IMG/VR virus record: IMGVR_UViG_3300010354_017483
Span: 1-25,793 of that record
Length of the DNA stretch: 25,793 bases
Direction: 5' to 3' (one strand)
DNA from: a virus
A program made the translations under genes and the position numbers. Each line of letters opens with the position of its first letter. Within the stretch, counting starts at the first letter, position 1. Positions 1-23,446 of the stretch are shown one piece after another. Under the pieces are notes generated by a model. The model worked only from the letters and a program-made list of their open reading frames with translations. It was not told the DNA's origin and ran no database searches.

Positions 1-746
1 ACTATATTTTTTTGCATCATATTAATCAATTCATCTAAAGCAGAACTATCGTTTTTACTTACTCTCCACATCAAAATCCTAGTGGCAGGACCATATTTAC
101 CATCTTGTTTAAAAGTCATTGCATCATGTAAACTACGATTACGAGCTGCTTGATCGTTTATAACTGCAGATATTAAATCGCTATGTGACTTACTTGCTGC
201 AGCAGACGTCGCCTTTTTAGGTGCTTTACTGAGGTGTGGATTAGGTTCACTACCATCAATTACTACACTCCAAATTTCCATTGGGTCCACATTCTTAAAT
301 TCTTGTGTACCTCTACTAACAAACTTATAATCCTTTATCTTAGGATTGACTAATCTATATACAGCATCAGTCATTGTGACTCCACCATAATCCGCAAGAC
401 TTTCTGTACGAGCAGCAAGGTTTACAGCATCTCCCATAAGATTAGTACCATATATCCATACTTCACCGACATGCATACCTATACGCCAGCGCATACCATT
501 ATTTAATTTTTTCATACGTGCTTGCATTTCTATGCCAAAACGAACAGCATCAACTGCGCTGGCAAACTCAATGAGTACGCTGTCTCCCCCTGTATTGAAT
601 AGACGACCTTTACTGGCATCTATTAAGGGATCAATAACAGCCCTGCAAGCATCTAACTTGGCTAGTGTTCCTGCTTCATCTTTTTGCATTAAACTACTAT
701 ACCCAATGACGTCACTACAAATTATTGTAGCTAGTTTAGTTTCCAT
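1..746 (-). CDS. Class III nucleotidyl cyclase (3'-truncated by window edge)
   Basis: The frame is open from the ATG at 746-744 to the window edge: 248 residues, no stop. An AGGGA Shine-Dalgarno sits about 9 nt upstream. Residues 5-163 form a class III cyclase homology domain of the compact type common in alphaproteobacteria. D12 (in ICSDVIGYS) and D55 (in NTGGDSVLIEF) are the two metal-binding aspartates; N109 and R113 (in GDAVNLAAR) are the transition-state residues. A catalytically competent enzyme making a cyclic nucleotide from an NTP is therefore expected. At the purine-specifying positions, usually Lys with Asp/Thr in adenylyl cyclases and Glu/Cys in guanylyl cyclases, I read N51 and N102, so the substrate cannot be assigned. 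Beyond residue 165 is a low-complexity linker rich in Ala, Lys and Ser, then an unrecognised C-terminal part. It overlaps the upstream gene by 11 bp, so the two are probably coupled and read from the late promoter at 1214-1221. The family call is firm; the product is open. Confidence 0.88.
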   Translation of the reverse strand, partial: METKLATIICSDVIGYSSLMQKDEAGTLAKLDACRAVIDPLIDASKGRLFNTGGDSVLIEFASAVDAVRFGIEMQARMKKLNNGMRWRIGMHVGEVWIYGTNLMGDAVNLAARTESLADYGGVTMTDAVYRLVNPKIKDYKFVSRGTQEFKNVDPMEIWSVVIDGSEPNPHLSKAPKKATSAAASKSHSDLISAVINDQAARNRSLHDAMTFKQDGKYGPATRILMWRVSKNDSSALDELINMMQKNI

Positions 747-1176
747 TTAATTCTTCCCTGCGCCAATTATAATCTGGGTAACATTGTCTAGGAGCTATTT
801 TCTTATCTATAGTAATTACCCATATGTATTCGCACATTCTTTTAATAATTTCAGTATTGGCTTGTATTCTTTTATCTTGTGATTTTAAACTATTTTCTAA
901 AGCAATATTAGTTTCCTCTAATTTTTTAATAAGAGCATTCTGTTTTTCTAATTGGATTTCTAAATTATTCTGTTGATTAAGTACTACATTAGGTTGAACT
1001 TGAATATCTAATTCTTTAGATGATGTTTTAAAAGTCATCAGAATTAATACTAAGGCGGCGATGGACAATAATAAGACTAAGGAATAAACTGGTTTAGACT
1101 TTATCCATGCTAAAACTAATTCATGTCTAGCCATCTTCAAATTTCTAACTGATCGAGTATAAGGTTTTCTAGGCAT
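736..1176 (-). CDS. One-helix membrane protein with coiled coil (i-spanin-like shape)
   Basis: This 146-residue protein has a basic N-terminus (residues 1-28), one hydrophobic helix at about residues 29-48 (VYSLVLLLSIAALVLILM) and a long predicted coiled coil at about 65-108 rich in Gln, Leu, Glu and Asn. The C-terminus has two cysteines (near C115 and C131). I do not recognise a family. The basic N-terminus suggests N-in topology with the coiled coil in the periplasm, the shape of an inner-membrane spanin, but that is inference. It is the first gene after the minus-strand late promoter at 1214-1221, and its 3' end overlaps the cyclase start by 11 bp, so it is probably co-expressed with the cyclase late in infection. 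It could instead be a membrane anchor or partner of the cyclase. The Shine-Dalgarno at the chosen start is weak (GGA). Confidence 0.72.
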   Translation of the reverse strand: MPRKPYTRSVRNLKMARHELVLAWIKSKPVYSLVLLLSIAALVLILMTFKTSSKELDIQVQPNVVLNQQNNLEIQLEKQNALIKKLEETNIALENSLKSQDKRIQANTEIIKRMCEYIWVITIDKKIAPRQCYPDYNWRREELNGN

Positions 1177-1194: not shown

Positions 1195-1202
1195 TATAAA
1201 TA
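1195..1202 (+). promoter_or_regulatory. T4-type late promoter octamer for the DUF4337 operon
   Basis: An exact TATAAATA lies 33 nt before the ATG of the plus-strand operon. This is the consensus recognised by the T4-type late sigma factor gp55. An AAAGGA ribosome binding site follows at 1224-1229. A second exact copy on the opposite strand, 11 nt away, makes this a divergent late promoter pair. Confidence 0.75.
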
Positions 1203-1213
1203 ATTAATAAAAG

Positions 1214-1221
1214 TATTTATA
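1214..1221 (-). promoter_or_regulatory. T4-type late promoter octamer for the coiled-coil/cyclase operon
   Basis: An exact TATAAATA on the minus strand, 37 nt before the ATG at 1176. It faces away from the plus-strand octamer at 1195-1202. The initiation regions predicted for the two promoters overlap, so they may compete. Confidence 0.72.
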
Positions 1222-1235
1222 GTAAAGGAAATAAA

Positions 1236-1751
1236 ATGGCAGAAGAAAAGAAAGTACCAACACGTAGTGAACGTGAAGCAGCCATCAAGGATAAGGCTGG
1301 TTTTGTAATTGTTTTTCTTGCAGCACTATTAGCTATTAATACTATGATAGGCGGGTCTAACAGTAGTAAAATTCAAAACAATACCATACAAGCCAATAAT
1401 ATGTGGGCATGGTATCAAGCAAAAAATGTTCGAGGTGTATTATATGAAATAAATGCTGCTGAAACACAAATCCCAGCTAATAAGGAAAAATTCGAAGCTG
1501 AAGCTAAACGCATGAGTGATGATAAGAAAGATATTATGGAAAAAGCTAAAGCTCTAGAAGCAGAAAGAGATGAGGCTAAGAAACGTAGCCCATGGTTTAC
1601 CTGGGGTGGTAGCATTCTTCAAATAAGTATTGTTCTTCTTACTGCAAGTATTTTAGCTGCTAGTATGCCTATGTTTTATGTTAGTACTGTAGTGGGCGCA
1701 CTTGGTAGTTTAATAGTTAGCCAAGCATTATGGATGTGGCTTCCATGGTAA
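1236..1751 (+). CDS. DUF4337-type membrane protein
   Basis: 171 residues. The charged N-terminus contains a Lys/Glu/Arg-rich stretch. A first membrane helix lies at about residues 21-38 (FVIVFLAALLAINTMIGG). A motif reading IQANNMWAWYQAKNVRG follows at about 51-67, then a soluble helical, coiled-coil-like segment at about 72-118. Two C-terminal helices lie at about 124-145 and 147-168. The NxMWAWYQAK segment between helix 1 and a charged helical region is what I recall of DUF4337 proteins, found in bacteria and in some phages; their function is unknown. The ATG follows a clear AAAGGA ribosome binding site and a late-promoter octamer. It is the first gene of a three-gene plus-strand set of membrane proteins whose ends overlap. 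A role in lysis, membrane signalling or superinfection exclusion is possible, but nothing here shows which. Confidence 0.72.
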   Translation: MAEEKKVPTRSEREAAIKDKAGFVIVFLAALLAINTMIGGSNSSKIQNNTIQANNMWAWYQAKNVRGVLYEINAAETQIPANKEKFEAEAKRMSDDKKDIMEKAKALEAERDEAKKRSPWFTWGGSILQISIVLLTASILAASMPMFYVSTVVGALGSLIVSQALWMWLPW

Positions 1752-1951
1752 AAATACTTGCTTTAGTTAGCATAGTATTTTTAGTTGGTTGCGCTGACAG
1801 ATATAGGTATCCTTGCCAAGATCCAAATAACTGGAATGAAAATTTTTGTAAAAAACCCTTATGCGAAATTAATAGATCGTGTCCAGAACATATCTTCAAG
1901 GAAGATTTGATGAACGGTAGTATAAATAGAGACAAGGATTGTAGACGATGA
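1745..1951 (+). CDS. Small Cys-rich lipoprotein
   Basis: From the ATG at 1745 the product is 68 residues and begins with a classic lipoprotein signal: a lysine near the start, a short hydrophobic run (ILALVSIVFL) and the lipobox LVGC, giving an acylated Cys at residue 16. An in-frame ATG at 1730 would add MDVAS, with an acidic charge in the n-region, so I prefer 1745. The mature part has six more cysteines (in YRYPCQDP, NFCKKPLCE, RSCPE and the C-terminal DCRR), which suggests disulfides in the periplasm. It overlaps the end of the DUF4337-type gene, and its TGA overlaps the next ATG (ATGA). By size and position it could be an outer-membrane spanin, with the coiled-coil protein at 736-1176 as a possible inner partner; that is inference. 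Confidence 0.7.
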   Translation: MVKILALVSIVFLVGCADRYRYPCQDPNNWNENFCKKPLCEINRSCPEHIFKEDLMNGSINRDKDCRR

Positions 1952-2334
1952 AGGATATTTTAGATAAAATCGTCGGTGAACCGAGTAAGGAAGAAGTAGA
2001 TGACCACCCTAAAAGAAGTCGTAAAGGCGAACGTTATACAGAAAATGAACTCATGGTACGGCTTAAGTTCATCATTGGGTGCTGCTTGGCCTTCACTCTT
2101 ATTGGGATTGTTTTTACAGTTCTTTATAGTATTATGTTTGTCACTCAGCCTCTTAATGCTATTAGTCCCATAGACCAAAAATTTTTCGAATTGATTATTC
2201 CTGTAGCTACATTCTTATGTGGTACTTTGTCTGGCATTATGCTTGCAGGTACAGGTAAGGAAGCTGCTATGGCAGGAGCAAAAGCAGCAGCTGACCAAGC
2301 AGCTAAAGAAGCGAAGGATAAGGAAAATAAGTAA
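1948..2334 (+). CDS. Two-helix membrane protein, holin-like size, function unknown
   Basis: 128 residues. The charged N-terminus (about residues 1-36) holds many Lys, Glu and Asp. Two hydrophobic segments follow at about 37-64 (with FIIGCCLAFTLIGIVFTVLY) and 82-102 (ELIIPVATFLCGTLSGIMLAG). The C-terminal tail, about 103-128, is a highly charged Ala/Lys/Glu helix. The second helix carries small-residue GxxxG-like spacing, which favours helix packing. Size, two helices and a charged tail would suit a holin or another small phage membrane protein, but I see no diagnostic motif and no endolysin nearby. The start overlaps the lipoprotein stop (ATGA), so the two are translationally coupled under the late promoter at 1195. 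The strong hairpin at 2356-2399 lies just after its stop. Confidence 0.68.
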   Translation: MKDILDKIVGEPSKEEVDDHPKRSRKGERYTENELMVRLKFIIGCCLAFTLIGIVFTVLYSIMFVTQPLNAISPIDQKFFELIIPVATFLCGTLSGIMLAGTGKEAAMAGAKAAADQAAKEAKDKENK

Positions 2335-7357: not shown

Positions 7358-7651
7358 TCACACAGGATGATAATCAAGTTCTTTTACTTCTTCAGTTTCT
7401 AGATCATGCACATATAGCATAATTAATGCATAGTGTAATATCTTTAGTATATCTTTCCTATTCCTTCCGGCTTTCTTTCCATATCTTTGTGCGTATTTTA
7501 TTATATTACCCACAGTATGACCAATACCATGCCCAGAATCAATAATAAATTCAGTAGTTTGAATGTTTCCTTGTGCATAATGTTCTGAGTAAGTTTTGTC
7601 TACATAAGTTTTTAATTCTTGTAATAATTCTAATTCATTGTATTTGTACAT
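7358..7651 (-). CDS. DUF3310-like small protein
   Basis: 97 residues. The core GHTVGNIIKYAQRYGKKAGR, then NRKDILKILHYALIML at about residues 65-80, matches what I recall of DUF3310 proteins (GNxIKYxxRxGKK..R..DLxKAxHY), widespread small phage proteins of unknown role sometimes labelled nucleotide kinase. The first part (EHYAQGNIQTTEFIIDSG) also fits. There is no P-loop. It overlaps the SDR gene by 22 bp and precedes gp45 by 7 nt, so it bridges the sugar block and the replisome block. A role in nucleotide or DNA metabolism is likely from its neighbours but not shown. Confidence 0.7.
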   Translation of the reverse strand: MYKYNELELLQELKTYVDKTYSEHYAQGNIQTTEFIIDSGHGIGHTVGNIIKYAQRYGKKAGRNRKDILKILHYALIMLYVHDLETEEVKELDYHPV

Positions 7652-8469
7652 ATAAGCTCATCCAAAATAGTATAAACACTTTTTTTACTAACGTATCCTA
7701 AAGATACAAGTTTGTTGTTATCCATATACATAGATTTGACTTGAACATTTTTATGAAATTCTGGTTGTACCATGGATTTAACTAGATGTGATCTATTGAG
7801 TTTACTAGAAACGTAATTGATCAAGTCAGCAAATCGTATTGGTGTACCATTGCCTATATTATAGATTTCATTTACTTTTCCATTTTTAAGTACTAAATCT
7901 ATTGCTTGGCAAACGTCATCTATAGAAATGTAATCTCTATAGAAATCACCATTGTCATAAAGTTGTATTTCATTTCCTTCTGATAATTCTCTAACTAAAT
8001 ATGTAAGAGCATTCTTTCTTTTGGATACTTTTGTATCATGGCCTCCAATCACATTTGCTAATCTTAATATTCTATATTTAAGATTATGTGTCTCACAATA
8101 TGATATGAGTAGTTGTTCGGCTGCTCTTTTAGTTATAGAATAAAATCCTTTCGGATCACAATAGGAATTCTCTCTTGCAGGAAGATCTGTGTCTCCATAT
8201 ACAAACCAAGAACTTATAAAATTAAATGTTATGCTATTAGAATACGGTAAATTTTTAAAATTTTCTAGTACTCTAATTAGGGTGGTCAAATTAGTTTCAA
8301 TATCTAGATAAGGATTAATTTTAACATTATAGTTATCAATAGTAGAAATAGTATAAAGTATACTACTACAATCTTTACTTGGAACTAAACTATTTCTTTC
8401 TTGTACTATACACTTATATTTATTAGCAAACTCTTTTCCTACATATCCATACCCAAATAAATTTACCAT
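7630..8469 (-). CDS. NAD(P)-dependent SDR epimerase/dehydratase or ketoreductase
   Basis: 279 residues, an extended short-chain dehydrogenase. The dinucleotide site is G6-Y-G8-YV-G11 near the N-terminus. The catalytic pair is Y110 and K114 in FYSITKRAAEQL, with a serine in FISSWFVYG as the third residue. The C-terminal YNIGNGTPIRFADLIN segment binds the nucleotide-sugar in this family. The N-terminus is trimmed: the usual first strand begins almost at the Met. It lies directly after the RfbH-type dehydrase and overlaps it by 7 bp. RfbH-type enzymes need a 4-ketoreductase to finish a 3,6-dideoxyhexose (as RfbJ or RfbS does for abequose or paratose), so that is the likeliest role. The substrate cannot be told from the sequence. 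Confidence 0.88.
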   Translation of the reverse strand: MVNLFGYGYVGKEFANKYKCIVQERNSLVPSKDCSSILYTISTIDNYNVKINPYLDIETNLTTLIRVLENFKNLPYSNSITFNFISSWFVYGDTDLPARENSYCDPKGFYSITKRAAEQLLISYCETHNLKYRILRLANVIGGHDTKVSKRKNALTYLVRELSEGNEIQLYDNGDFYRDYISIDDVCQAIDLVLKNGKVNEIYNIGNGTPIRFADLINYVSSKLNRSHLVKSMVQPEFHKNVQVKSMYMDNNKLVSLGYVSKKSVYTILDELICTNTMN

Positions 8470-9707
8470 TTGTTTATTACTTCCTCAATATATTTCAAAA
8501 CAGGTTCAGTAAAAACTGGTGTGCAGCCTAAAAAGAAAACATGGGACAAAGCCTTATTTGCATTTGGATATTCTTTATAGTCCCCAAGATGTTTATAACC
8601 CGGATGCAAAAGAATATTTCCAGCAAAATAACTTCTAGTTTGTATCTTATTTCCCTCAAAATGCGCTACTAACATTTCCTTTAATTCTTGTGATTCACAA
8701 ATTATTGGAACGCCGAACCAACTAGGATCTGATTCTGGAAGATAGTTTGCTACTCTTACTCCATCAATTTTGGATAAATATGATTCTATCATATGCTTAT
8801 AAAATCTTCTCTTATAATCAATCATATCCATTTTAGATAATTGTACTAGTCCAATAGCGCCTTGCATATCCAATGGTTTTAAATTATAGCCAATATTACT
8901 AAACACATACTTATGATCAACTATTCCATCATATTGATCTAACCAATAATCAAATCTTTTACCACACGTCCCGCATAGTAACGTATTATTAGCTCCCACA
9001 CAGTAACAATCTCTTCCCCACCAAGAAACACTACGAACTATATTCATAAAGTCTTCAGCATTAGATGAAATCATACCACCTTCACCAGTAGATATATGAT
9101 GTGCTGGATAAAAAGAACATGACCATGCAAAGTAATATTCATTAATATGTTTGTAATTAAATTTTGTTCCTAGGCTATCACAATTATCACCAATCAACTT
9201 TAATCCATACTTAGTGCATATGGCATCAATTTTGTCCATATCAGGAGGATTGCCTAATACAGGAGACACAATTATAGCTCGCGTTCTCGATGTAATAGCC
9301 TTTTCAATTAATTCAACATCAAAGTTTAAAGTATCCATTTCAATATCAATGAATACGGGCTTAAGATTATTTTGCACTATTGGAGCAATAGTTGTTGGGA
9401 ATCCTACAGGGGATACAATAATTTCATCGCCATCCTGCCAATCAAAATATTTCTTTAATGCGGTAATCATTACTAAATTTGCTGATGATCCTGAATTGAC
9501 CATATGACTAAATTTAGTATTAAACATCTTAGCAAAGGTATCTTGAAATTCTGCTACCTTTTCTCCTGAAGGTAACCATGCACCCTCGGTAAATGCCTTC
9601 ACTCCTGCTTCTATTTCTTGATGATCCCAATAAGGTCCAGAATATAATACTACGTCTTGACCAGGTTTGAAATTTTCATAATTTTTAATGTATGGTGGTA
9701 GTTTCAT
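8463..9707 (-). CDS. RfbH/E1-type NDP-4-keto-6-deoxyhexose 3-dehydrase (PMP and [2Fe-2S])
   Basis: 414 residues, DegT/DnrJ/EryC1 fold. In SFYPAHHISTGEGG the lysine that normally binds PLP is replaced by His (H203), the hallmark of the PMP-dependent 3-dehydrases (RfbH/DdhC/AscC E1 and ColD). Cysteines C176, C234 and C236, with C245 or C248, follow the C-x57-C-x-C spacing I recall for the [2Fe-2S] site of E1, which ColD lacks. The GRDCYC and CGKRFDYW segments also match RfbH. RfbH takes CDP-4-keto-6-deoxyglucose towards 3,6-dideoxyhexoses such as abequose, paratose, tyvelose and ascarylose. Neither a CDP-glucose cytidylyltransferase nor a 4,6-dehydratase of that path, nor the E3 reductase, is seen here, so the substrate may be host-made or may be the Gmd product. 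The start overlaps the glycosyltransferase stop (ATGA). Confidence 0.9.
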   Translation of the reverse strand: MKLPPYIKNYENFKPGQDVVLYSGPYWDHQEIEAGVKAFTEGAWLPSGEKVAEFQDTFAKMFNTKFSHMVNSGSSANLVMITALKKYFDWQDGDEIIVSPVGFPTTIAPIVQNNLKPVFIDIEMDTLNFDVELIEKAITSRTRAIIVSPVLGNPPDMDKIDAICTKYGLKLIGDNCDSLGTKFNYKHINEYYFAWSCSFYPAHHISTGEGGMISSNAEDFMNIVRSVSWWGRDCYCVGANNTLLCGTCGKRFDYWLDQYDGIVDHKYVFSNIGYNLKPLDMQGAIGLVQLSKMDMIDYKRRFYKHMIESYLSKIDGVRVANYLPESDPSWFGVPIICESQELKEMLVAHFEGNKIQTRSYFAGNILLHPGYKHLGDYKEYPNANKALSHVFFLGCTPVFTEPVLKYIEEVINKW

Positions 9708-10480
9708 GGTGCTGGAAAATATTTTAAAATTTGTTCAACAATATGTGGAGGACTTACTTTATAAGAATCAGAATGACCATTAGGGCCCACAAATCTAGGT
9801 TTTATAATTTTATTAGTAGAATAAGGATTCATTTTAAAATCATGTTTTTGCCTAACACGGAACGACCATTCCGTGTCCTCATCTTGCCCCCATACTCTAA
9901 CATTATCAAGAGGATATTCTTGCATGAACCTCTTTTTTGCTACCCAAAAAGATCCATTAACATACTGATATTTAGACAGATGAGAAATATCATAAGGAAT
10001 AAGTGAAGGCGGTAAGTCATTTGGATCAGTGTATCTTAAAAGTTCATCCATCTTAGCAGCATTAGGAGGTTGTAAATCTGCAGGCAATTTACTATTCCAA
10101 GGCCAAATAATCCAATCTCGCCACCTTTTATCATCATGTGTTAGTACCTTCGTTACACATACTTTGAAGTCATCACCGAACTTTAGAAATCCCTCATACC
10201 AATCTGACATATAAATTTTATAGTCATGCGAGTATGTTACATTTTCATATTTCGCTAATTCAGTTATAATATTCTTTTTTCTTGTAATCCATTGAGGCTT
10301 AATTTCCTCATTAAAAGGTACTACAGTAGTCCTGTCTCTTTTGACCTTAGACGTGCCTACAACAATGATTTCATATTCTGGAACATTGAGAGCTTCAATA
10401 CTATCTATAATTCTATCTACTCTTTCATCAGCACCATCTTCAAAAACACCTCTGGTGATAACACCAAAACTAAATTTCAT
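9704..10480 (-). CDS. GT2-like glycosyltransferase (GT-A fold)
   Basis: 258 residues. It begins with a GT-A-like strand (FSFGVITRGV), a helix (RVDRIIDSIEALNVPEYEIIVVG) and a second strand, the usual nucleotide-binding start of GT2 enzymes. The later YVNGSFWVAKKRFMQEYPLD followed by WGQDEDTEWSFRVRQK is the typical acceptor-side segment with an acidic ED pair and Trp of GT2 proteins. A clear DxD is not obvious; HDYKIYMSD may carry the metal ligand. It is coupled to the genes on each side by 4-bp overlaps. Donor and acceptor sugars are unknown. Confidence 0.78.
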   Translation of the reverse strand: MKFSFGVITRGVFEDGADERVDRIIDSIEALNVPEYEIIVVGTSKVKRDRTTVVPFNEEIKPQWITRKKNIITELAKYENVTYSHDYKIYMSDWYEGFLKFGDDFKVCVTKVLTHDDKRWRDWIIWPWNSKLPADLQPPNAAKMDELLRYTDPNDLPPSLIPYDISHLSKYQYVNGSFWVAKKRFMQEYPLDNVRVWGQDEDTEWSFRVRQKHDFKMNPYSTNKIIKPRFVGPNGHSDSYKVSPPHIVEQILKYFPAP

Positions 10481-10953
10481 AAATTATCCTTTGCCCATAA
10501 AATACATTCATCCACATTTTTATATAAGTATGCTTTACCTCCAGCGTTTTTCCAATCATTATAATTACTTTCCCTATCATCTATTAATACATCATTAGAG
10601 GTTCTCAAATGTCTCCATTTATCGGTACTAAAAGGACCAAAGAACACGGGATAATCTGGAAAATATTTTTGGGCCCAATTCACTTTATCATAAAAGGCCC
10701 ATTGCATATCATTGTTTCTGGGAACAGCAGTAAGTAGATATATAGAATATGAATTTTTATAACTTGATAAAAACTCCATCAGTTTATAGGCGCCATCTTT
10801 TACTTCCAAGTCTCTGTACAATCTAGGATTCTCTTTTAATTTTGCCCAAGTTAAATTTTCGTATCTTACTTCATTGAATTGTTTGCCTAAAATTTTAGTT
10901 GAGTATTGTTTAAAATCAGCTAAAACATCATCCATGTCTACATAGATATTCAT
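10477..10953 (-). CDS. HAD-family 5'-nucleotidase-like phosphatase
   Basis: 158 residues. HAD motif I is VDMDDVLADF (nucleophile D6, acid D8), the signature of the 5'(3')-deoxyribonucleotidase (NT5C) branch. Motif II is LLTAVP (T75), motif III is K112 in TDKWRHL, and motif IV is LIDDRESN (D125-D126). The compact size and a short helical cap fit NT5C or sugar-phosphate phosphatases. In a phage it could recycle dNMPs, but it lies inside the sugar block between a glycosyltransferase and the GatZ-like gene, so a sugar-phosphate substrate is as likely. Overlaps of 4 bp join it to both neighbours. Confidence 0.85.
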   Translation of the reverse strand: MNIYVDMDDVLADFKQYSTKILGKQFNEVRYENLTWAKLKENPRLYRDLEVKDGAYKLMEFLSSYKNSYSIYLLTAVPRNNDMQWAFYDKVNWAQKYFPDYPVFFGPFSTDKWRHLRTSNDVLIDDRESNYNDWKNAGGKAYLYKNVDECILWAKDNL

Positions 10954-11918
10954 AAATTTTTCTCGTAATGATTAAATAAATTTAAAATCTCAGCCTCAAC
11001 TAAAAATGGCAAGTCTTTAATCTTATCTCTCAAAATCATATATTCATCACTTCTAAATAGATAATGACCTGCCATTAATACTTTATCATTATCATTACCA
11101 TATTGATGCCATTTTCTCCATTTGCCACTGTTAAGTACTGCTTGAGCAAAATTGTTCCATTCAGCTTTTAGATTATTTCGTTTACAATAATTACTTGTGA
11201 CAATTGTCTGAATAACTCCTAGCTGAGGAGCTATATTTAATGCATGCACTCCTGCAATTTTTCTGAGATTAATCTGTTCTGCAGACAGGTAATCTGCATT
11301 GTGTTCCTTCAATCCAATTCCCGCATCGTTAGCGAAAGCTACTAGTTCTTTGACTGTTTCTAAATCAAAATTACCTGCTTGCCTTGTTTCCATAACAAGG
11401 CTTCCTGTCTGCGCAACAACATAAGTCATATTAGAAAAATGTTTAGCAAATTTTACATCTGATTTATAATTCTTTATGCCTGCTGCTACACCTATATTTT
11501 CTTCAGTTCCAAATTCAAATAGAATACTTGGGTTCAACTTGATACAAAATTCAATTAAATCTTCAGCAGTTTTATAGACATCACTACATCTAGAAGTGTC
11601 TATATGGATAAGATCAAATCCAGATTCGATATCCTTAGCAATAGTTTTCTTAGTTGCTTCTATAGCATCAAATTCACTTAAATTTTTTTCTGTATCTAAA
11701 AAGTAAGGTCCACAATGATCTCTACAAAGTAGTAGATTCATGGATTTAAATGGTGCTAGAATATTTTCTAATTCTGCAGATTTACAAACATATCCTGAAT
11801 CTGCATCTATTTGATTTCTGCTAGCAATAACCATTAAAGGCGATCCAATACTTATTTTACCAAGAGCAACTATTATCTCATGGCTCATTGGACCAAGACC
11901 AAGTCTAAATTTATTCAT
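10950..11918 (-). CDS. GatZ/KbaZ-like aldolase-type protein
   Basis: 322 residues, resembling the GatZ/KbaZ subunit associated with class II tagatose-1,6-bisphosphate aldolase (about 420 residues). Matching elements are PLMVIASRNQIDADSGYV near the N-terminus, LLLCRDHCGP, LIHIDTSRCSD, ILFEFGTEENIG, then KEHNADYLSAEQI and VHALNIAPQLGV, followed by WRKWHQYGN and AGHYLFRSDEY. The fold is a TIM barrel. It is about 100 residues shorter than KbaZ, and no GatY/KbaY partner is nearby. Several His, Asp and Glu at barrel ends are kept, so it may be an enzyme in its own right, acting on a sugar phosphate or keto-sugar. It overlaps the AroE-like gene, suggesting sequential steps. The family is likely; the reaction is unknown. 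Confidence 0.78.
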   Translation of the reverse strand: MNKFRLGLGPMSHEIIVALGKISIGSPLMVIASRNQIDADSGYVCKSAELENILAPFKSMNLLLCRDHCGPYFLDTEKNLSEFDAIEATKKTIAKDIESGFDLIHIDTSRCSDVYKTAEDLIEFCIKLNPSILFEFGTEENIGVAAGIKNYKSDVKFAKHFSNMTYVVAQTGSLVMETRQAGNFDLETVKELVAFANDAGIGLKEHNADYLSAEQINLRKIAGVHALNIAPQLGVIQTIVTSNYCKRNNLKAEWNNFAQAVLNSGKWRKWHQYGNDNDKVLMAGHYLFRSDEYMILRDKIKDLPFLVEAEILNLFNHYEKNL

Positions 11919-12627
11919 TTAATTCTTTTTCTAATTTATCATATACAATCATTTCTGGTCTTATACCAGTATAAAGTTCAAACTGTTTTTTAAAATGAGA
12001 TCTATAAAATTTTTTACCAGAATAATAATCTATATCTTGACTTAGTAGTGTCAATTTATTTTTGTTTATACTCAGATCAATTATTAATTTAACATCTTTA
12101 GGTAAATACTTCAATGGACTTTTATCCTCAAGTGTACCTAATGATGTACAATTTACTACGACATCTGTTCTTTCATGTCTATTATCCCAATTATTCAAAC
12201 TTCTAGAATATACCTTTGTATTATATCCATACCCTTTTAGAATTTTATCGTATATCTTCCCCATACTTCCATTTCCTAAAACAGAAACATCTGATAAGGG
12301 AACAATAGTCGAAACAGAATTTAGAACTCCATGTACATCAGTATTCTCTCCGTGATACCTACCATTTTTACGAATAATGGTATTACAACTTTCATATTGC
12401 TCTACATCTTTTGAATAACTATCTAAAAAATTAATTACTTCTTTTTTGAAAGGCATACTAATGCTAATACCATCTACTTCTTTTTCAAAAGCATCTTTTA
12501 AGGCTTTTTCCAAATTATCACATTGTAATGATATATAAGTAGCATCTATTTCATGATGCTTGAAAAGATTATTATAAAAGTATTGTCCTAGCTTACTAGG
12601 CTTTTTACTTAAACTTATAAAATTCAT
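11911..12627 (-). CDS. Shikimate dehydrogenase-like (AroE family) oxidoreductase
   Basis: 238 residues (AroE is about 270). The substrate domain has SLSKKPSKLG, the equivalent of the HSxSPxxHN shikimate-binding loop, then GISISMPFKKEV with catalytic K61, and GENTDVHG with catalytic D97. The dinucleotide domain has VLGNGSMGKIY, a GxGxxG-like loop with the first Gly changed, then VVNCTSLGT. The catalytic Lys/Asp pair is kept, so reduction of a keto-cyclohexane or related compound is plausible. An aromatic-pathway role is unlikely in this setting; no other aro gene is here. Flanked by the GatZ-like and NTF2-like genes with overlaps, it probably acts on an unusual sugar or cyclitol. Confidence 0.85.
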   Translation of the reverse strand: MNFISLSKKPSKLGQYFYNNLFKHHEIDATYISLQCDNLEKALKDAFEKEVDGISISMPFKKEVINFLDSYSKDVEQYESCNTIIRKNGRYHGENTDVHGVLNSVSTIVPLSDVSVLGNGSMGKIYDKILKGYGYNTKVYSRSLNNWDNRHERTDVVVNCTSLGTLEDKSPLKYLPKDVKLIIDLSINKNKLTLLSQDIDYYSGKKFYRSHFKKQFELYTGIRPEMIVYDKLEKELNE

Positions 12628-12941
12628 TGCTTATATGCTCTAATAGAGATTATTTTATTTTTCTCAAATTCTAGTACATCAACTACCTTCAATTGAAGAT
12701 TATCTAATAATATAGTTATTTCTGCCATACAACAACTTTTATCCATAGTCATTCGATTTATATCAATTTTAATCTTTTCAAAATTACTAAAGATATCAGA
12801 CACTGCATTGAGAACAGTTTCCTTACCTACCAGATCCAAATTCCAATCTATAAGTTGCACATTGTCACTAAGTATTTCTGACACGCCATCTAAATTTTTT
12901 GTCTCAAAATCATGGAAATACTTTATTACCTCAAACATCAT
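12624..12941 (-). CDS. NTF2-like/SnoaL-like small protein
   Basis: 105 residues. The pattern is an N-terminal helix (VIKYFHDFETKNLDGVSEIL), then 'LSDNVQLIDWNLDLVGKE', a helix (VLNAVSDIFSNFEKIKIDI) and four strands ending in VVDVLEFEKNKIISIRAYKQ. This is the layout of SnoaL-like NTF2-fold proteins (helix, D.V...W....G...I, then a curved sheet with an 'F....I..I.. Y' end). Members act as small isomerases, cyclases or lyases, or have no catalytic role. It overlaps both the AroE-like gene and the nucleotidyltransferase fusion. A role in shaping a cyclic sugar intermediate is possible but is inference. Confidence 0.75.
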   Translation of the reverse strand: MMFEVIKYFHDFETKNLDGVSEILSDNVQLIDWNLDLVGKETVLNAVSDIFSNFEKIKIDINRMTMDKSCCMAEITILLDNLQLKVVDVLEFEKNKIISIRAYKQ

Positions 12942-14475
12942 TTTCTAACTCCTGAAATAATTTTATACCTAGATACCATAGAAAAATATCAAAAGGTGCA
13001 CTATGTAAAGGAGCCATATTCCAAAATATAATAGGTACTAAAGTTTTCACTTTTTGGTAATCTAGTTTGTTATCAAGTATAAATTGTTTCAATTTTTCTT
13101 GATAAACTTCTATGTGATCTACATTTGGAATACTTAAGGTAGCTACATTATGTTCCATTTCAATATTAAAATTATGATTCTTTATGTCTGCATAGTTTAT
13201 AATTAACCCGCCCATTAGCTTAGCTAGATCATAATATAGATCACCCTCCATAACTAACCCAGCAAATTCATGTCTCCAATCTATTATTTTGAATTCGCCT
13301 TTTTTGGTAATTATAATATTATCAAATTGTAGATCTCCGTGAGTAAATACAGCTAAAGCCGTATCAGCTAGCCTATCCCATTTAATGTTGTTTAAATAGA
13401 ACTTGTAATCTTTTACTGCAACACCATCAACAAAATTTACTGAAGGAAGTGTTGGATATTTTTCTAGAAACTTATTTATTCTAAGTAATGATTTATTCTT
13501 ATAGAATTCTAATGATTGTTTTTTAATGTCAGTTTTAGACTCAACCCATACATTATTTTTTAACCAAGATAATAATTCATTAAACATTACTGGATTGTTA
13601 AAACTATAAAGCGTCTCACCTTCACAAAAATCATATCCTAGAAAGTTTCCGGATTGTGTGCAGTTATCAGGAAATACATTCTTATTAAAAGTAGTCTTTA
13701 AATGTTTCTTAATAGGAATAGATTCATCTACCCACCATTTTACTACTCTGTTTTCTAGTATATAGGTGATCTCATCTTTTTTAGTAAAATCAAATTTTTG
13801 CGATTTACTTAAAGCTGTTTGATAGATATCCGGATTGCCAAAATCTAACCAAGTAGGAAGCAATGCTGCCTGATCCCCCTCTTCTATTAATTTAATGAAT
13901 TCTGTACTATTAAGATTTTCTAATCTATAGAAAAAATCTTGATAATTACTAATATACATCAAACCCGTAAAAGCTTTCCAATCTTCAGGTGCAGTTTGCT
14001 TAAAGGTTATTTGTTTTATTTTATACAAGGAATCAATCTCAATCATAGTATAATGATGAGACATAGCTTTCGGAACGTCTTTTACAAAATATAAATCTTC
14101 TCCCTCATTAGCTTGAACTATAGGAAGAGTTTGCATATAAGTATCACATGGTACATACCAAAAAGGTGAGGATACTAACTCACCACATTTTAGTAATGTT
14201 ATTCCTGTCCCACTATTTTCACTATACCAATCATCTATTTCCAAAAATTCAAAGTATTTGTCTGGATAAGCAGTTAACAAATAGTCTTTAACTTGTTTTC
14301 CAAGATATCCTAGTGGAATAATAAACCTATTATCTCCAGGAAAACAGTCTATAATGTGAGAAATAACAGGCTTATTTAGATAAGGCAATAATGCTTTGTT
14401 TAAATTTTTTGTTAGATTCCCCATTCTGCTGCCTAGACCGGCAGTGGGAATTATAATAGTTTCACTGATGCTCAC
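12931..14475 (-). CDS. Nucleotidyltransferase-kinase fusion (sugar/choline type)
   Basis: 514 residues with two domains. Residues 1 to about 225 are a GT-A nucleotidyltransferase: PTAGLGSRMGNLTKNLNKAL with the nucleotide-binding loop, then LNKPVISHI, and D111 in YVPCDTYM as a metal ligand. Residues about 230-514 form an aminoglycoside/choline kinase-like domain: the catalytic loop is HGDLQFDNI (D381, N386) and the metal site is IIDW (D399). The arrangement recalls LicC/LicA activities joined in one chain: the kinase phosphorylates a small alcohol or sugar and the other domain couples it to a nucleotide. The substrate is unknown. Overlaps join it to the cupin and NTF2-like genes. Confidence 0.88.
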   Translation of the reverse strand: MSISETIIIPTAGLGSRMGNLTKNLNKALLPYLNKPVISHIIDCFPGDNRFIIPLGYLGKQVKDYLLTAYPDKYFEFLEIDDWYSENSGTGITLLKCGELVSSPFWYVPCDTYMQTLPIVQANEGEDLYFVKDVPKAMSHHYTMIEIDSLYKIKQITFKQTAPEDWKAFTGLMYISNYQDFFYRLENLNSTEFIKLIEEGDQAALLPTWLDFGNPDIYQTALSKSQKFDFTKKDEITYILENRVVKWWVDESIPIKKHLKTTFNKNVFPDNCTQSGNFLGYDFCEGETLYSFNNPVMFNELLSWLKNNVWVESKTDIKKQSLEFYKNKSLLRINKFLEKYPTLPSVNFVDGVAVKDYKFYLNNIKWDRLADTALAVFTHGDLQFDNIIITKKGEFKIIDWRHEFAGLVMEGDLYYDLAKLMGGLIINYADIKNHNFNIEMEHNVATLSIPNVDHIEVYQEKLKQFILDNKLDYQKVKTLVPIIFWNMAPLHSAPFDIFLWYLGIKLFQELENDV

Positions 14476-14902
14476 TTTCTATTCTTCCGTGTGTTCTTCC
14501 TTGATCATCATGCAATCGAATAACATCATCTAAATGATTAGTACTACATTCAATAAATTCCAAATCAGTAATAGCTTCAACTCGATGTACTACCCCTGGA
14601 GCCATATCATATACATCGCCGGCTTGTACTTCTATTTCTTCTAACGTAATCATATATTCTAAAAGTTGTTCTTCGGTAAACCCATCCTTTAGATATCTAT
14701 CTATATCTAATTTTTCCTTACTTCTATAAAGTTTGCCTTTACCAGATAGAACATAATTAGTTTCATATTTTTCTTGATGTACTTGTAAACTTGTTCTATT
14801 ACCGGCTTTAAATAAAATGCGCTTTAGTGCGTAGGGTGACTTAGTTCCATCTGCTATCCAAAGTTCATGTCCCCAATGTTTACTTACCTTTTTTATTGTC
14901 AT
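14462..14902 (-). CDS. Cupin, mannose-6-phosphate isomerase type II-like
   Basis: From the ATG at 14902 the product is 146 residues. The longer frame starts at 14932, but the ATG at 14902 overlaps the radical SAM stop (ATGA), so the inner start is chosen. Elements: the KKVSKHWGHELWIADGT opening, FKAGNRTSLQVHQEKYETNYVLSGKG (cupin motif 1, with metal-ligand His/Glu) and AGDVYDMAPGVVHRVEA (motif 2). This is the cupin layout of the C-terminal domain of type II phosphomannose isomerase/GMP proteins. It may isomerise a hexose phosphate, for example feeding GDP-mannose to Gmd, or epimerise another sugar. Confidence 0.83.
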   Translation of the reverse strand: MTIKKVSKHWGHELWIADGTKSPYALKRILFKAGNRTSLQVHQEKYETNYVLSGKGKLYRSKEKLDIDRYLKDGFTEEQLLEYMITLEEIEVQAGDVYDMAPGVVHRVEAITDLEFIECSTNHLDDVIRLHDDQGRTHGRIESEHQ

Positions 14903-15813
14903 ATATACCTCACATTGTCGCAAGATTTGCAAATACTACATTTAGAAAATTCTGCTGTTTCGTTTATAGCGATAATATCCAGTAATTCTTTATTTTTAAA
15001 TATATCTTCCCAGTCCTGTTTAATTAGATTTCCTATAATATGTTTTAAATCATAATCCATACAACATAATACTACATCTCCGTTAGGCAACAAAACATTT
15101 CTATCGAAAAACGGTGTAGAAGCGCATGTTAAAGATCTACTATGTTTAGGAGTAAAACTTATTTCTTGTCCTTTTACTTGATCTATATCTAAACTACCAG
15201 CTCGACTATGCCCGACCCAACCAGGTGTCTTTTCAGCAATATGTGCAATCTCAGGATGAACGACACCGGACTTATCCATAGTCATTGATCCTACACCGCA
15301 GGATACCTTTGCTCTTGCCATTTTATTAAATACATATTCCCATTCCTCGGAATATTTCCAGCCGCGCATATTTTTATTAGCATCAGGCAAATGTAAACAT
15401 ACAACTTCTATTTGTTTATTATGCCTTTCTAAAAGATTAACTACAGTGTCTACTTCTTCAGCTTTCATGCCATATAGTGTGGAAAATACTGCTACAGTAA
15501 AACCCTTTTCCAGTGTCATCTGTAACATAGTTGTACAATCAGGATTTGCCCACGGTTCGGCCATACCACTAAAATCTATTCTAGTATTAATAGGTAACTT
15601 ATCTAATACTATTTCTAAATCCTGTACAGTCATGTATTTTAATTCTTTGCCATATGCATCTCTGAGATTATCTTGAGGACAGAACGTACACATCAAAGGA
15701 CACCCAACCATAGTTGTTAGTTCCATGGCAGGAGGGTGTGGATGTGAATACCCGTATTTTTGTCTTACAGGTGGGACTATAGGTCTTTGCTTAAATGTTA
15801 TTGTTTTTTCCAT
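14899..15813 (-). CDS. Radical SAM/SPASM enzyme
   Basis: 304 residues. The [4Fe-4S] site C38-x3-C42-x2-C45 lies in VGCPLMCTFCPQ, the radical SAM signature. The barrel region follows (MTVQDLEIVLDKL, then DFSGMAEPWANPD). The C-terminus holds SPASM-type cysteines: the CASTPFFDRNVLLPNGDVVLCC block, then IIGNLIKQDWEDIF and SKCSICKSC near the end. The enzyme would use S-adenosylmethionine to generate a 5'-deoxyadenosyl radical and act on a substrate held by the barrel. SPASM members modify peptides or oxidise sugars and aminoglycosides; the context favours a sugar. The start overlaps the GT2 gene by 16 bp and the stop overlaps the cupin. Confidence 0.92.
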   Translation of the reverse strand: MEKTITFKQRPIVPPVRQKYGYSHPHPPAMELTTMVGCPLMCTFCPQDNLRDAYGKELKYMTVQDLEIVLDKLPINTRIDFSGMAEPWANPDCTTMLQMTLEKGFTVAVFSTLYGMKAEEVDTVVNLLERHNKQIEVVCLHLPDANKNMRGWKYSEEWEYVFNKMARAKVSCGVGSMTMDKSGVVHPEIAHIAEKTPGWVGHSRAGSLDIDQVKGQEISFTPKHSRSLTCASTPFFDRNVLLPNGDVVLCCMDYDLKHIIGNLIKQDWEDIFKNKELLDIIAINETAEFSKCSICKSCDNVRYI

Positions 15814-16535
15814 GGAAGAACTCCGTTGTATTGCCTCAGCATGAACTCATTGCCATTAAGAAAAAATTCAGCTCGGACTGAATCAACTCTATTACCAGCT
15901 CTATAGTTCAAACTATATTTATAGCTCGGAGATCCCTTTAAATTATTTTCAAGTAACGCGGACATCATTATTCTATCTATTTCAGGTTGTTCTTCGGGAT
16001 GTCTTGCACGTCTATAAAAAAGAGGAGACATTTGTACACAAAGATTTTTAGGTAAAAAATAACACCCTACATCTACAAAAAAATCACCAATACATGATTT
16101 CCAATTACCTAAACTTTCACAATCATCATTACAAATAAATTTTCCAGACTGATCCACAATTTTTCTAAAAGAAAATGCCCAATGATTATTCTTTACCGCT
16201 TCCACTAACGCTTCGATATGTTCTGAATCTAGATAATTATCCTCATCAATAAAACAAAAATAATCTGCATCAATAAGATATGTACATGCCGCATATATTC
16301 TATGTCCGTTATACCCACCCTTACCTGTGTTTTCAGATAAAGGTAGGTGTTTAGATTTACTAAATTTTTTCAATATCTTGGAGACAGTATCATTATGTTC
16401 TTTGCCATCAGATACAACAATATGCTTAAGATTCTTATATGTTTGTTTATTAATGGAATCTAAATTTTGTTCTAAAAATTTTGTTCCAATAGTAGGTGTA
16501 ATAATAGCAACTGAAGGTTTAGCAATCATTTCCAA
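15798..16535 (-). CDS. GT2-family glycosyltransferase
   Basis: 245 residues. GT-A start: VAIITPTIGTKFLEQNLDSI then INKQTYKNLKHIVVSDG, a textbook GT2 opening. The metal site is the DED at residues 97-99 in YFCFIDEDNYLD. The later part includes CIGDFFVDVGCYFLPK and a Trp-ending C-terminus. It should transfer a sugar from a nucleotide donor by inversion; donor and acceptor are unknown. It overlaps the GT-D-like gene upstream by 10 bp and the radical SAM gene by 16 bp. A TATAAATA octamer at 15916-15923 inside it is considered chance. Confidence 0.92.
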   Translation of the reverse strand: MEMIAKPSVAIITPTIGTKFLEQNLDSINKQTYKNLKHIVVSDGKEHNDTVSKILKKFSKSKHLPLSENTGKGGYNGHRIYAACTYLIDADYFCFIDEDNYLDSEHIEALVEAVKNNHWAFSFRKIVDQSGKFICNDDCESLGNWKSCIGDFFVDVGCYFLPKNLCVQMSPLFYRRARHPEEQPEIDRIMMSALLENNLKGSPSYKYSLNYRAGNRVDSVRAEFFLNGNEFMLRQYNGVLPWKKQ

Positions 16536-17461
16536 TAAGCTCTTTCAAATCTATTAAATAAATCTTTGTTCCTAGGTAAATCATTTTCTTCAGGCCATTG
16601 CCAAGCATCTGTAAACATCTTTGGCCATTCTACGTATGAGGTATTATTTCCAGCCCATCGTGCACCTATTATCCCATAATGTAATTGTAGCACTCCGCAT
16701 AAAGTTATACCTATCTTACCTTTATTTTTAGCATGATTAGCAAGAGCAGGGGCCCATGCTGCAGCACTTACTAATAATACATCATAATCATAAGTGTCGA
16801 TTTCTTTTTTCATTGCTTCTAGAGTTTCATGCCAATTATTAGTATTAGGATAAACTCTATCATCCATCTGAGGATGAAAGGGGGAACGAACTACACCTAC
16901 CAAATCATACCCTGCGATATCCTCTACTTTGTCTCCCCAAATTTCTTTTCTTTTATTCCATTGTTTATTAATTGTCTCCACAAAATTGGAAACTACTAAT
17001 ACCTTTTTACCTTGTAATTTCTTGGTCCATGGATTGGGGCATTCAACATCTACTATACCTTTGTTTATTAGATATCCTGGATCCAAAGCTAAGATATCAT
17101 CCACTCCGTAAAAAGTAAATTTATCCTTACAATATCTGTCATTAAAATTTTTATTAGCTTTTACGTTTCCTGAAATATCTACGAATCCTAACATATCAGC
17201 ATTAAGCATTGCTCGATAATTGATCGGAGCCCAGGTATTAGTCAGATAATTCATATCTGTAGGATAAACACCAGATGTTAATGAAATCCAATAAAAGAAT
17301 TCATTTAATGGAGTTTCATTTTTATTAAAACAATCTAAAAAATACCCCTCCATATTTCCCATTCTAATTACAGTAAATGGATCTCCTTTATCAAATCTTT
17401 TAATAATTTCATCATTGATTGAAGATAGTGTATCCTTATCTTTTACATTATACTGTGGCAT
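16526..17461 (-). CDS. GT-D-like glycosyltransferase (DUF1792 type)
   Basis: 311 residues. FTVIRMGNMEGYFL near residues 29-42 carries R33-x-G35-N36-x-E38, which parallels the RxGDGE signature of GT-D fold glycosyltransferases with Asp changed to Asn. The second domain has YDVLLVSAAAWAPALANHAK at about 225-244 and KIGITLCGVLQLHYG, matching the 'DLVLISAG..AK.L......G...lD.GH' part of that family. The GT-D family was first known from transfer of glucose in glycosylated serine-rich proteins. The Asp-to-Asn change may alter metal use. It overlaps its neighbours by 10-14 bp. I am moderately sure of the family. Confidence 0.68.
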   Translation of the reverse strand: MPQYNVKDKDTLSSINDEIIKRFDKGDPFTVIRMGNMEGYFLDCFNKNETPLNEFFYWISLTSGVYPTDMNYLTNTWAPINYRAMLNADMLGFVDISGNVKANKNFNDRYCKDKFTFYGVDDILALDPGYLINKGIVDVECPNPWTKKLQGKKVLVVSNFVETINKQWNKRKEIWGDKVEDIAGYDLVGVVRSPFHPQMDDRVYPNTNNWHETLEAMKKEIDTYDYDVLLVSAAAWAPALANHAKNKGKIGITLCGVLQLHYGIIGARWAGNNTSYVEWPKMFTDAWQWPEENDLPRNKDLFNRFERAYWK

Positions 17462-18170
17462 GATTTTCCTGATAATATTTTACAAGTTTATTTCTATCTT
17501 TTTTAATGTAATAGAAAGCTTCTTGTATATCATTTGGCAACGAATTAAATAAATCTAACATCTCTTTCTCGGCACGATTCTTATCATAGTTTGTACCTGA
17601 AGGATGCTTTACAGTGTGAGCATAATCTCTTAACACTGGTCTCTGCATCATATGACTCAGTGCAGGATATACAATATCAAAACTCCATCCCATTTTATAT
17701 GGGGAGAAATCTACGTTTCTACTTTTTGCCTTCTCGATAATATCCCTATGTATAAACCAACAAGTGCAATCTGTATTCGCAACCATTTTTAACTTAGATT
17801 CTGGATCAACGAATGCGTCCAAATCTGTTCTTGTAGAATCATACCATGTGTAATCCACATTTGGAGCGTATATCCCCCAGTTATCTTCCTCAAAGTATTT
17901 TCTTGCATCATTTATTAGATCAGACCATCTATCATAACTTGCATCCGCTTGAATATGAAACATAACATCTGCATCAAATAGATTTAAAGCTGCTAACATT
18001 TGATCAGTAAAATATGCAGACTCGCCTATATTATGCCAATCTTTTTCTTTGTGATTATCATCACTATTAATAATGATTGGCTCAATACCTATTTCTTTTA
18101 ATTGTTTAATTTTGAAAAGTGTATTCTCATATTGGCCGCGCCAATTAAATATAAAGGTTTGTATTTTCAT
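17448..18170 (-). CDS. GT-A-like glycosyltransferase, family unassigned
   Basis: 240 residues. It begins MKIQTFIFNWRGQYENTLFK with the strand-helix-strand of a GT-A nucleotide-binding half (IGIEPIIINSDDN). A metal-binding DxD-like motif lies in MFHIQADASYDRW at about residues 70-82. Later VANTDCTCWFIHRDII and GWSFDIVYPALSH are of the 'acceptor loop' kind in glycosyltransferases. I recall similar proteins in large aquatic phages, but cannot name a CAZy family. Overlaps of 4 bp with the GT10 gene and 14 bp with the GT-D-like gene place it in the fucosylation cluster. Confidence 0.7.
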   Translation of the reverse strand: MKIQTFIFNWRGQYENTLFKIKQLKEIGIEPIIINSDDNHKEKDWHNIGESAYFTDQMLAALNLFDADVMFHIQADASYDRWSDLINDARKYFEEDNWGIYAPNVDYTWYDSTRTDLDAFVDPESKLKMVANTDCTCWFIHRDIIEKAKSRNVDFSPYKMGWSFDIVYPALSHMMQRPVLRDYAHTVKHPSGTNYDKNRAEKEMLDLFNSLPNDIQEAFYYIKKDRNKLVKYYQENHATV

Positions 18171-19039
18171 CTTTGCATTATCTTATTGTAAACCACAGCA
18201 TCAAACCAGTTAAGAAAATTATCTAGAACTAGATAAGAGGGTGGAAGATTATTAGTAAATTTTGGTGCTTTTAGATAAGAATTATATAATTCATCATCTG
18301 AGTCCACCTTAAGAACATATTCTACGACATCATCTAAAGTATCAAAGTCATGTACGTTAATAAAAGATTTAGGATTGAAGTCTGAAGTTATAGTTTCACT
18401 GCCCCAATAAATTGGAACAGTTCCTGCATAAAAGGCACTAAGAATTTTTTCTGTTACATATCCAGGATGACTCATAGATTCAAAACATATATTGAATTTT
18501 CTAGTTGAGAGAAAATCTATTTTAGATTGCTCGCCATCAAGTTTAGCTTGTATATTATTATACAACTTGCCACCGCTGTCAACAGATTTTTTAGAATTTA
18601 GTTTGGTAAAGAAATCATTTCGTAGTTTACAGTTTGGATTAGAAACTACAAAGGAACAAAATGAGTCTTTTTTCTTAAGATCAATATCATTCAAAATATA
18701 TGTCATCGGGTAAGGCATCTTGTGAATATGGTTCCATGCCCACATATAGATTACAAATAATGGTAATCTATAATGCCATGATTCAAAGTTATGATCAAAA
18801 CTTATAGCATAATGACAATCATAATCTTCCGGTCTTTGATTTTCTCCAGTAAAAAATATTTTAATAACATCTTTTTTAGAATATTTTCTATTGTCGGTGC
18901 CGAAGTTAGTATCACCAAAAATTAGAAAATCTGGAGATTTATTATCAAATTCTATTTCATAACGTGTAGCTAGAATAGAATGAAAAAATCTAGCAAGGTG
19001 ATCATGAGTATCTGTAAATCCTAGTTTAAGCTTTTTCAT
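18167..19039 (-). CDS. GT10 alpha-1,3/4-fucosyltransferase
   Basis: 290 residues. The GT10 signature spans residues 181-213: KFNICFESMSHPGYVTEKIL followed by SAFYAGTVPIYWGS, the 'KF.i.FENS...GYVTEK...A..aGtVPIY.G' motif of alpha-1,3-fucosyltransferases, with Lys and Glu residues that contact GDP-fucose. Before it lie FFTGENQRPEDYDCHYAISFD and the PLFVIYMW segment, also usual in the family. The enzyme transfers fucose from GDP-L-fucose onto GlcNAc or a related sugar. Fcl lies just upstream in the transcript, so donor and transferase are made together. It is about 80-100 residues shorter than H. pylori FucTs, with no heptad-repeat tail. Confidence 0.9.
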   Translation of the reverse strand: MKKLKLGFTDTHDHLARFFHSILATRYEIEFDNKSPDFLIFGDTNFGTDNRKYSKKDVIKIFFTGENQRPEDYDCHYAISFDHNFESWHYRLPLFVIYMWAWNHIHKMPYPMTYILNDIDLKKKDSFCSFVVSNPNCKLRNDFFTKLNSKKSVDSGGKLYNNIQAKLDGEQSKIDFLSTRKFNICFESMSHPGYVTEKILSAFYAGTVPIYWGSETITSDFNPKSFINVHDFDTLDDVVEYVLKVDSDDELYNSYLKAPKFTNNLPPSYLVLDNFLNWFDAVVYNKIMQR

Positions 19040-19952
19040 AATGAGTTTTATACCATTCTATAGTTTTAATTATACCTGTTTTCAAATCAGTTTTTGCTTC
19101 CCATCCTAAGTTTTTTATCTTATCAACATTTAAAACTTTACGAGGAGTTCCGTTAGGTTTAGATGTATCCCAAATTATTTTGCCTTTAAAATTTAGAACA
19201 TCTGCAATTAGATCAACTAATTCTTTAATAGTGACGTCTTGACCAGTACCAACATTAATAGTGTTTTGGCAATCATTATAATTTTCCATTAGATGCACAC
19301 AAGCATCTGCCATATCATCAACATAAAGAAATTCTCTTTTAGGAGACCCATCTCCCCAGCAAACAACTTCTTCAGGATTGGATATAAATTTATTTATAAG
19401 ACCAGGAATAACATGACTATTGACCGGATCAAAGTTATCACCAGGACCATATAGATTGGTTGGCATACAAGATATGAAATTACTATTATACTGTTTACTA
19501 TAATATTGGCACATCTTTAATCCGGCTATTTTTGCTATAGCATATGCCTCATTAGTTTCTTCTAAATAACCAGATAGTAATTGATCCTCAGTTATAGGTT
19601 GATTAGCAAACTTAGGATATATACAAGATGATCCTAGGAACAATAATTTTTTAACCCCAAATTTTCTAGATGATTCTATGAGATTATTTTGAATCATTAG
19701 ATTAGTATAACAAAATTCAGCAGGATAAGTTTTATTGGCTATGATTCCACCTACTTTAGCTGCAGCAATAAAAACGTATTCTGGCCTATTATAAGTGAAC
19801 CACATATCTAAATCATTAGACGATGTTAGATCGACTGTAGATTTGGGCACTGTCACTACATTATGATAATGATTTTTAGATAAGGCTTTAAGTATTGCTG
19901 ATCCCACTAATCCTTTGTGTCCGGCAACAAATATTTTACTATTTTTATTCAT
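19026..19952 (-). CDS. fcl: GDP-L-fucose synthase
   Basis: 308 residues. The dinucleotide loop is VAGHKGLVGSAI near residues 9-20. The catalytic triad sits in LGSSCIYPK (Ser and the adjacent catalytic Cys) and YAIAKIAGLKMC (Tyr and Lys). The downstream PTNLYGPGDNFDPVNSHVIP motif is diagnostic of Fcl/WcaG. The enzyme epimerises GDP-4-keto-6-deoxymannose at C3 and C5, then reduces it with NADPH to GDP-L-fucose. It works with Gmd two genes upstream. The start overlaps the GT23-like gene (ATGA) and the stop overlaps GT10. Confidence 0.96.
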   Translation of the reverse strand: MNKNSKIFVAGHKGLVGSAILKALSKNHYHNVVTVPKSTVDLTSSNDLDMWFTYNRPEYVFIAAAKVGGIIANKTYPAEFCYTNLMIQNNLIESSRKFGVKKLLFLGSSCIYPKFANQPITEDQLLSGYLEETNEAYAIAKIAGLKMCQYYSKQYNSNFISCMPTNLYGPGDNFDPVNSHVIPGLINKFISNPEEVVCWGDGSPKREFLYVDDMADACVHLMENYNDCQNTINVGTGQDVTIKELVDLIADVLNFKGKIIWDTSKPNGTPRKVLNVDKIKNLGWEAKTDLKTGIIKTIEWYKTHYEKA

Positions 19953-23389: not shown

Positions 23390-23417
23390 AATAAACACTC
23401 CACGTTGTACATATCTT

Positions 23418-23446
23418 ATTATAAATTAATTTGAATAAAAGGTCAA
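23418..23446 (-). promoter_or_regulatory. Sigma70 promoter for cobS
   Basis: On the minus strand TTGACC and TATAAT are separated by exactly 17 nt. The -10 ends 28 nt before the cobS ATG. The -35 overlaps the stop of the CobT-like gene. It resembles a host-read early promoter. Confidence 0.75.

Follow-up and report, generated by a model that had tools for sequence, protein, structure and literature searches.

The window, by which we mean the whole 25.8-kb viral record under analysis, carries T4-type genes (encoding a RegA-family translational regulator, a clamp-loader subunit, a sliding clamp and Hsp20) and, at one edge, a reading frame that spans 248 codons (3–746, minus strand). This frame begins within the window and is truncated at its 3' end by the contig edge. 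The translated product matches the Guanylate_cyc profile (Pfam accession PF00211; E 5.1e-11; 42.9 bits, where the cut-off is 21.9), and this match, together with full-length relatives, identifies a class III nucleotidyl cyclase gene that is complete at its 5' end and retains 248 of about 410 codons. The cyclase homology domain comprises residues 1–165 (252–746, minus strand; delimited by profile, residues and the fold of a relative, L002), and the first third of a C-terminal alpha-solenoid is predicted at about residues 188–248 (3–185, minus strand) from a model of the L002 C-terminus.

The cyclase start overlaps by 11 nt with an upstream gene (736–1176, minus strand) that encodes one transmembrane stretch and a coiled coil, belongs to no recognised family and recurs in 6 of 30 loci (cluster c19). 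Ahead of this two-gene unit lies a T4-late-promoter-like box, TATAAATA (1214–1221, minus strand), and a divergent copy of the box (1195–1202, plus strand) precedes a gene for a DUF4337 membrane protein (1236–1751, plus strand; PF14235, E 7.9e-32; cluster c3, 12 loci). The latter is followed by a small lipoprotein-like gene (1730–1951, plus strand; cluster c2, 19 loci; lipobox recognised by eye) and a small membrane protein gene (1948–2334, plus strand; phrog_25359, of unknown function, E 2.1e-16; cluster c1, 19 loci). The original prediction placed a late promoter ahead of the cyclase. In its favour, the divergent pair sits at the same position in each of the related contigs L002, L003, L005 and L006, but the motif as such is not enriched in the window, where 8 boxes compare with 7.5 expected by chance.

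Other features of these phages also merit mention. Two secreted-looking proteins travel with the cyclase neighbourhood (L002:11141–14883, minus strand, with homologues in 10–12 loci); one is very rich in Asn/Ser/Thr repeats, and the pair yielded no Pfam family and one weak PHROG match of unknown function. The window itself contains a long sugar-nucleotide/glycosyltransferase-like run (7630–22136), whose genes were assigned by eye as epimerases, aminotransferase-like, nucleotidyltransferase-like and radical-SAM-like, and which resembles a surface-glycan cluster in a T4-type phage. Beyond it, a MoxR/CbbQ-type AAA ATPase followed by a 713-aa protein without a Pfam match (22220–25584) recalls MoxR/VWA pairs.

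A scan of viral contigs identified 29 relatives with 70–89% identity to the window protein, and a wider viral scan, which overlaps this set, identified 53 loci in several phage backgrounds. These relatives supply the 3' end that the original prediction had noted as missing and give a full protein of about 410 aa (complete copies, 406–412 aa), in which the cyclase domain (residues 1–165) is joined to a C-terminal Sel1/TPR-like alpha-solenoid. The modelled cyclase domain of L002 (mean pLDDT 82) resembles the solved cyclases Ma1120 (Z 22.0, rmsd 2.2, 159 residues aligned) and Rv1900c (Z 21.2). Its C-terminus is modelled as an alpha-solenoid (pLDDT 92) whose nearest solved chains are Sel1-repeat/TPR proteins, though the match to Sel1-repeat proteins (Z 13.8, rmsd 7.1, 200 aligned) falls within the chance range for helical repeats and is only suggestive of a Sel1-like identity. 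A fold search with the C-terminus among viral models gave no match below E 0.001. Most codon differences between the window gene and two relatives leave the amino acid unchanged (75 silent against 35 changing in one comparison, 61 against 34 in the other), showing that the gene is under purifying selection. The 29 relatives, the invariant residues described below and the predominance of silent differences thus indicate that the reading frame is more than a chance occurrence. A tblastn search of 50,697 phage records with the window protein (threshold 1e-5) returned no match, and no isolated phage in that collection is therefore known to carry this cyclase. With bacterial homologues as queries, isolated phages gave weak matches and the scan of viral contigs gave nothing. 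One of the loci, a 399796-base record (L181, IMGVR_UViG_3300036770_003657) that possibly represents a jumbo phage, has the same cyclase, next to the small membrane genes that also accompany it in contig L004.

As the original prediction stated, the window protein retains the metal-binding aspartates D12 (711–713) and D55 (582–584) and the transition-state residues N109 (420–422) and R113 (408–410), and it has Asn at both base-selecting positions, N51 (594–596) and N102 (441–443; all minus strand). Alignment to solved cyclases places N51 at the Lys position and N102 at the Asp position, and the canonical Lys and Asp are absent there; the corresponding pairs are Lys/Asp in 3mr7 and Asn/Asp in 1ybt. 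D12, N51, D55, N109 and R113 are without variation in all copies that cover them, so the metal and transition-state residues of class III cyclases are intact throughout the family. Position 102 is Asn in 46 of 51 aligned rows and Asp, the adenine-type residue, in the other 5. Neither the Lys/Asp nor the Lys/Thr pair of canonical adenylyl cyclases occurs, as Lys is never found, and the Glu that guanylyl cyclases have at the first base-contact position is likewise replaced by N51 in every copy covering it. Without the canonical Lys, the enzyme may select its base loosely. By profile, fold and residues, the window gene encodes a phage-borne class III cyclase that is probably active and whose base-contact residues are non-canonical.

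A phylogenetic tree places the phage copies in one clade adjoining a cyclase from a Burkholderiaceae MAG (L031; support 100/99). The genes around L031 are chromosomal (by eye, a sigma-54 gene and one for flagellar export), so L031 does not come from a stray phage contig. Another neighbour is a gene for a cyclic-nucleotide-binding protein (PF00027, E 1.2e-19). Two further full-length copies (L227 and L228), from genomes of the same genus group, came to light when the genus was sampled more densely. The three bacterial proteins share the two-domain build of the phage enzyme over its whole length at about 35–37% identity, with Asn at position 51 and either Asn (L031) or Asp (L227 and L228) at position 102; they differ in being chromosomally encoded and in their neighbours, which for L227 and L228 are K/T-type cyclases. 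In both of these genomes (L227:5–2641 and L228) the homologue directly follows the K/T-type gene, so that two different cyclases stand in tandem. Homology between the phage protein and L031 extends to the C-terminus (E 8.4e-29), so the whole two-domain protein has a bacterial counterpart, and no homology was recognisable between the phage C-terminus and the C-termini of marine alphaproteobacterial cyclases. The latter, of about 615 aa, also carry Asn/Asn, although the scan of genome contigs that found them was seeded partly with RLFNTGGD, which biased it towards the uniform Asn seen at position 51. A less biased sample of profile matches contained mostly K/T and K/D pairs, with Asn pairs in the minority. 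Among 299 genomes of the family, no other matched L031 over its full length at E ≤ 1e-30, which suggests that the donor type is rare. Since Asn pairs occur in bacterial relatives, the pair is most likely older than the phages and not a phage invention, and the exchange of Asn and Asp at position 102 is found among phage and bacterial copies alike.

A known parallel for the base-contact residues is Rv1900c (LipJ) of Mycobacterium tuberculosis (PDB 1ybt/1ybu), a class III domain in which Lys is likewise replaced by Asn. It differs from most phage copies in having Asp at the second position and is fused to a lipase domain, whereas the phage protein has a solenoid. Its NCBIfam family is named bifunctional lipase/adenylate cyclase, and Rv1900c is a known adenylyl cyclase.

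These comparisons bear on what the unusual pocket means. The original prediction took Asn/Asn as a hint of a pyrimidine product that might confuse a cyclic-nucleotide defence such as Pycsar, and a pyrimidine or mixed product could account for both base-contact residues deviating from the textbook purine pairs in a class III fold with an altered base pocket like that of Pycsar cyclases. Those enzymes, however, choose UTP or CTP through Y50/D94/R97, F60/K104/F109 or F100/R142/Q144 (PMC11224242), and the positions that would correspond, judged by spacing from the metal Asp and not by superposition, are C10, N51, G53, S56 and L58 in the phage protein, mostly outside the Asn pair and none of them alike. 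Ordinary cyclases, too, often have an aromatic residue where the phage protein has C10, and it is therefore only the lack of one that carries information. Weak matches to PADLOC PycC profiles (21.3 bits at best) proved unspecific, as ordinary cyclases score 15–85 bits and the pelagiphage HTVC008M cyclase 85. The present genes, moreover, reside on phages and not on hosts, and no effector partner was recognised. Given in addition that bacterial relatives carry Asn/Asn and Asn/Asp and that the phage pair alternates with the Asn/Asp of Rv1900c, the pyrimidine reading appears highly improbable, and nothing supporting a role in counter-defence was found. Asn/Asn in this cyclase subfamily thus does not signal pyrimidine specificity, which removes a potential trap for annotation. 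The same two non-canonical residues, along with a solenoid that looks protein-binding, would also fit a catalytically dead or nearly dead domain retained as a nucleotide-binding or protein-docking module. We regard this as very unlikely, since the metal and transition-state residues are all invariant and Rv1900c, a known adenylyl cyclase, shows the same loss of Lys.

Gene neighbourhoods provide a further perspective, as the cyclase lies close to lysis genes in several phage groups; this placement among or near lysis genes is the new point of our analysis. Nine contigs (L021, L023, L025, L026, L029, L192, L193, L196 and L200) of a phage type different from that of the window have the order holin-like gene, cyclase, lysozyme (endolysin), with a 4-nt overlap between cyclase and lysozyme at 5 of 6 junctions checked, and they form one branch of the cyclase tree (support 98/97; 5 of the 9 members tested). 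In a second group the cyclase, spanin-like genes and a gene for a GH19-type endolysin lie together in one co-directional run, and in L015 an endolysin lies about 0.75 kb upstream. These arrangements suggest late, lysis-linked expression of the cyclase in the phages concerned. They would also be expected if the enzyme were a lysis-timing component, produced alongside holin, endolysin and spanins, with its product or its solenoid adjusting membrane or envelope events before lysis. That proposal concerns what the enzyme is used for and fits with cAMP being its product. However, window-type phages (L002, L004 and relatives) and L027 contain no recognised lysis gene within the stretch available, and phage late genes cluster anyway, so that the neighbourhood is no proof of function and may mean only late expression. 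The idea of lysis timing, also raised by the original prediction, gains circumstantial backing from the neighbourhoods in related phages, but we still consider it rather unlikely. A broader version, in which the lysis programme of several phage lineages includes a cyclic nucleotide of their own making, with the cyclase co-translated with holin and endolysin and a host receptor sensing the product and setting when or how the cell opens, seems distinctly unlikely.

We consider it reasonably probable that the phages took up a Burkholderiaceae-type bacterial class III cyclase gene, which selection then kept in several lineages, and that the enzyme makes cAMP from ATP late in infection for a host receptor. 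The phage cyclase would act as a homodimer using two-metal catalysis, perhaps with relaxed base choice, and the C-terminal solenoid would probably dock or regulate it. The cAMP assignment draws on Asn/Asp being the pair of the adenylyl cyclase Rv1900c and on the five phage copies that carry Asp102. The target of the product is most likely a host receptor of the CRP/CNB type: eight phage records (52 to 183 kb) contained no cyclic-nucleotide-binding domain (PF00027), although these contigs are fragments in which a phage-coded receptor could be missed, and bacterial L031 lies beside such a gene. The same eight records contained no class I phosphodiesterase (PF00233), an absence that says little because the search passed its cut-off in no control genome. 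The activity of the enzyme, its product, its timing, the receptor and the benefit to the phage are all inferred here. For one phage, T1, the host's cAMP receptor protein is known to influence the choice between lysogeny and lysis (PMC6737242), a precedent, and not a test, for the idea that a phage gains from setting cAMP.

Phage adenylate cyclases have been published before, in pelagiphages, where they are part of a curli cluster (PMC9599517). The enzyme of pelagiphage HTVC008M (AGE60353; PMC9599517) is similarly a class III cyclase on a T4-type phage, but it differs in its length (611 aa), its long N-terminal sensor-like part, its K/S pair and its position beside curli genes. A curli link of this kind (CsgF/CsgG/CsgB neighbours) was considered and rejected for the present family, as no CsgG (PF03783) was found in nine phage records. 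In our tree the HTVC008M enzyme falls among K/T cyclases, at a great distance from the window cyclase family. The latter was thus acquired by phages separately, and it differs in build and genomic place. Among viral structure models, cyclase-domain proteins also occur in uncultured phages and giant viruses. A 634780-base phage record (LR745206.1; L173:3001–3513) encodes a short K/D-type class III cyclase, apparently another independent acquisition.

Phages are known to destroy cyclic-nucleotide signals. Complete genes from relatives now make the question of what the phage cyclase does testable. If the reading we favour is true, a conserved enzyme family that makes such a messenger, and that in some lineages sits among lysis genes, would show phages to be drivers of host second-messenger signalling as well.
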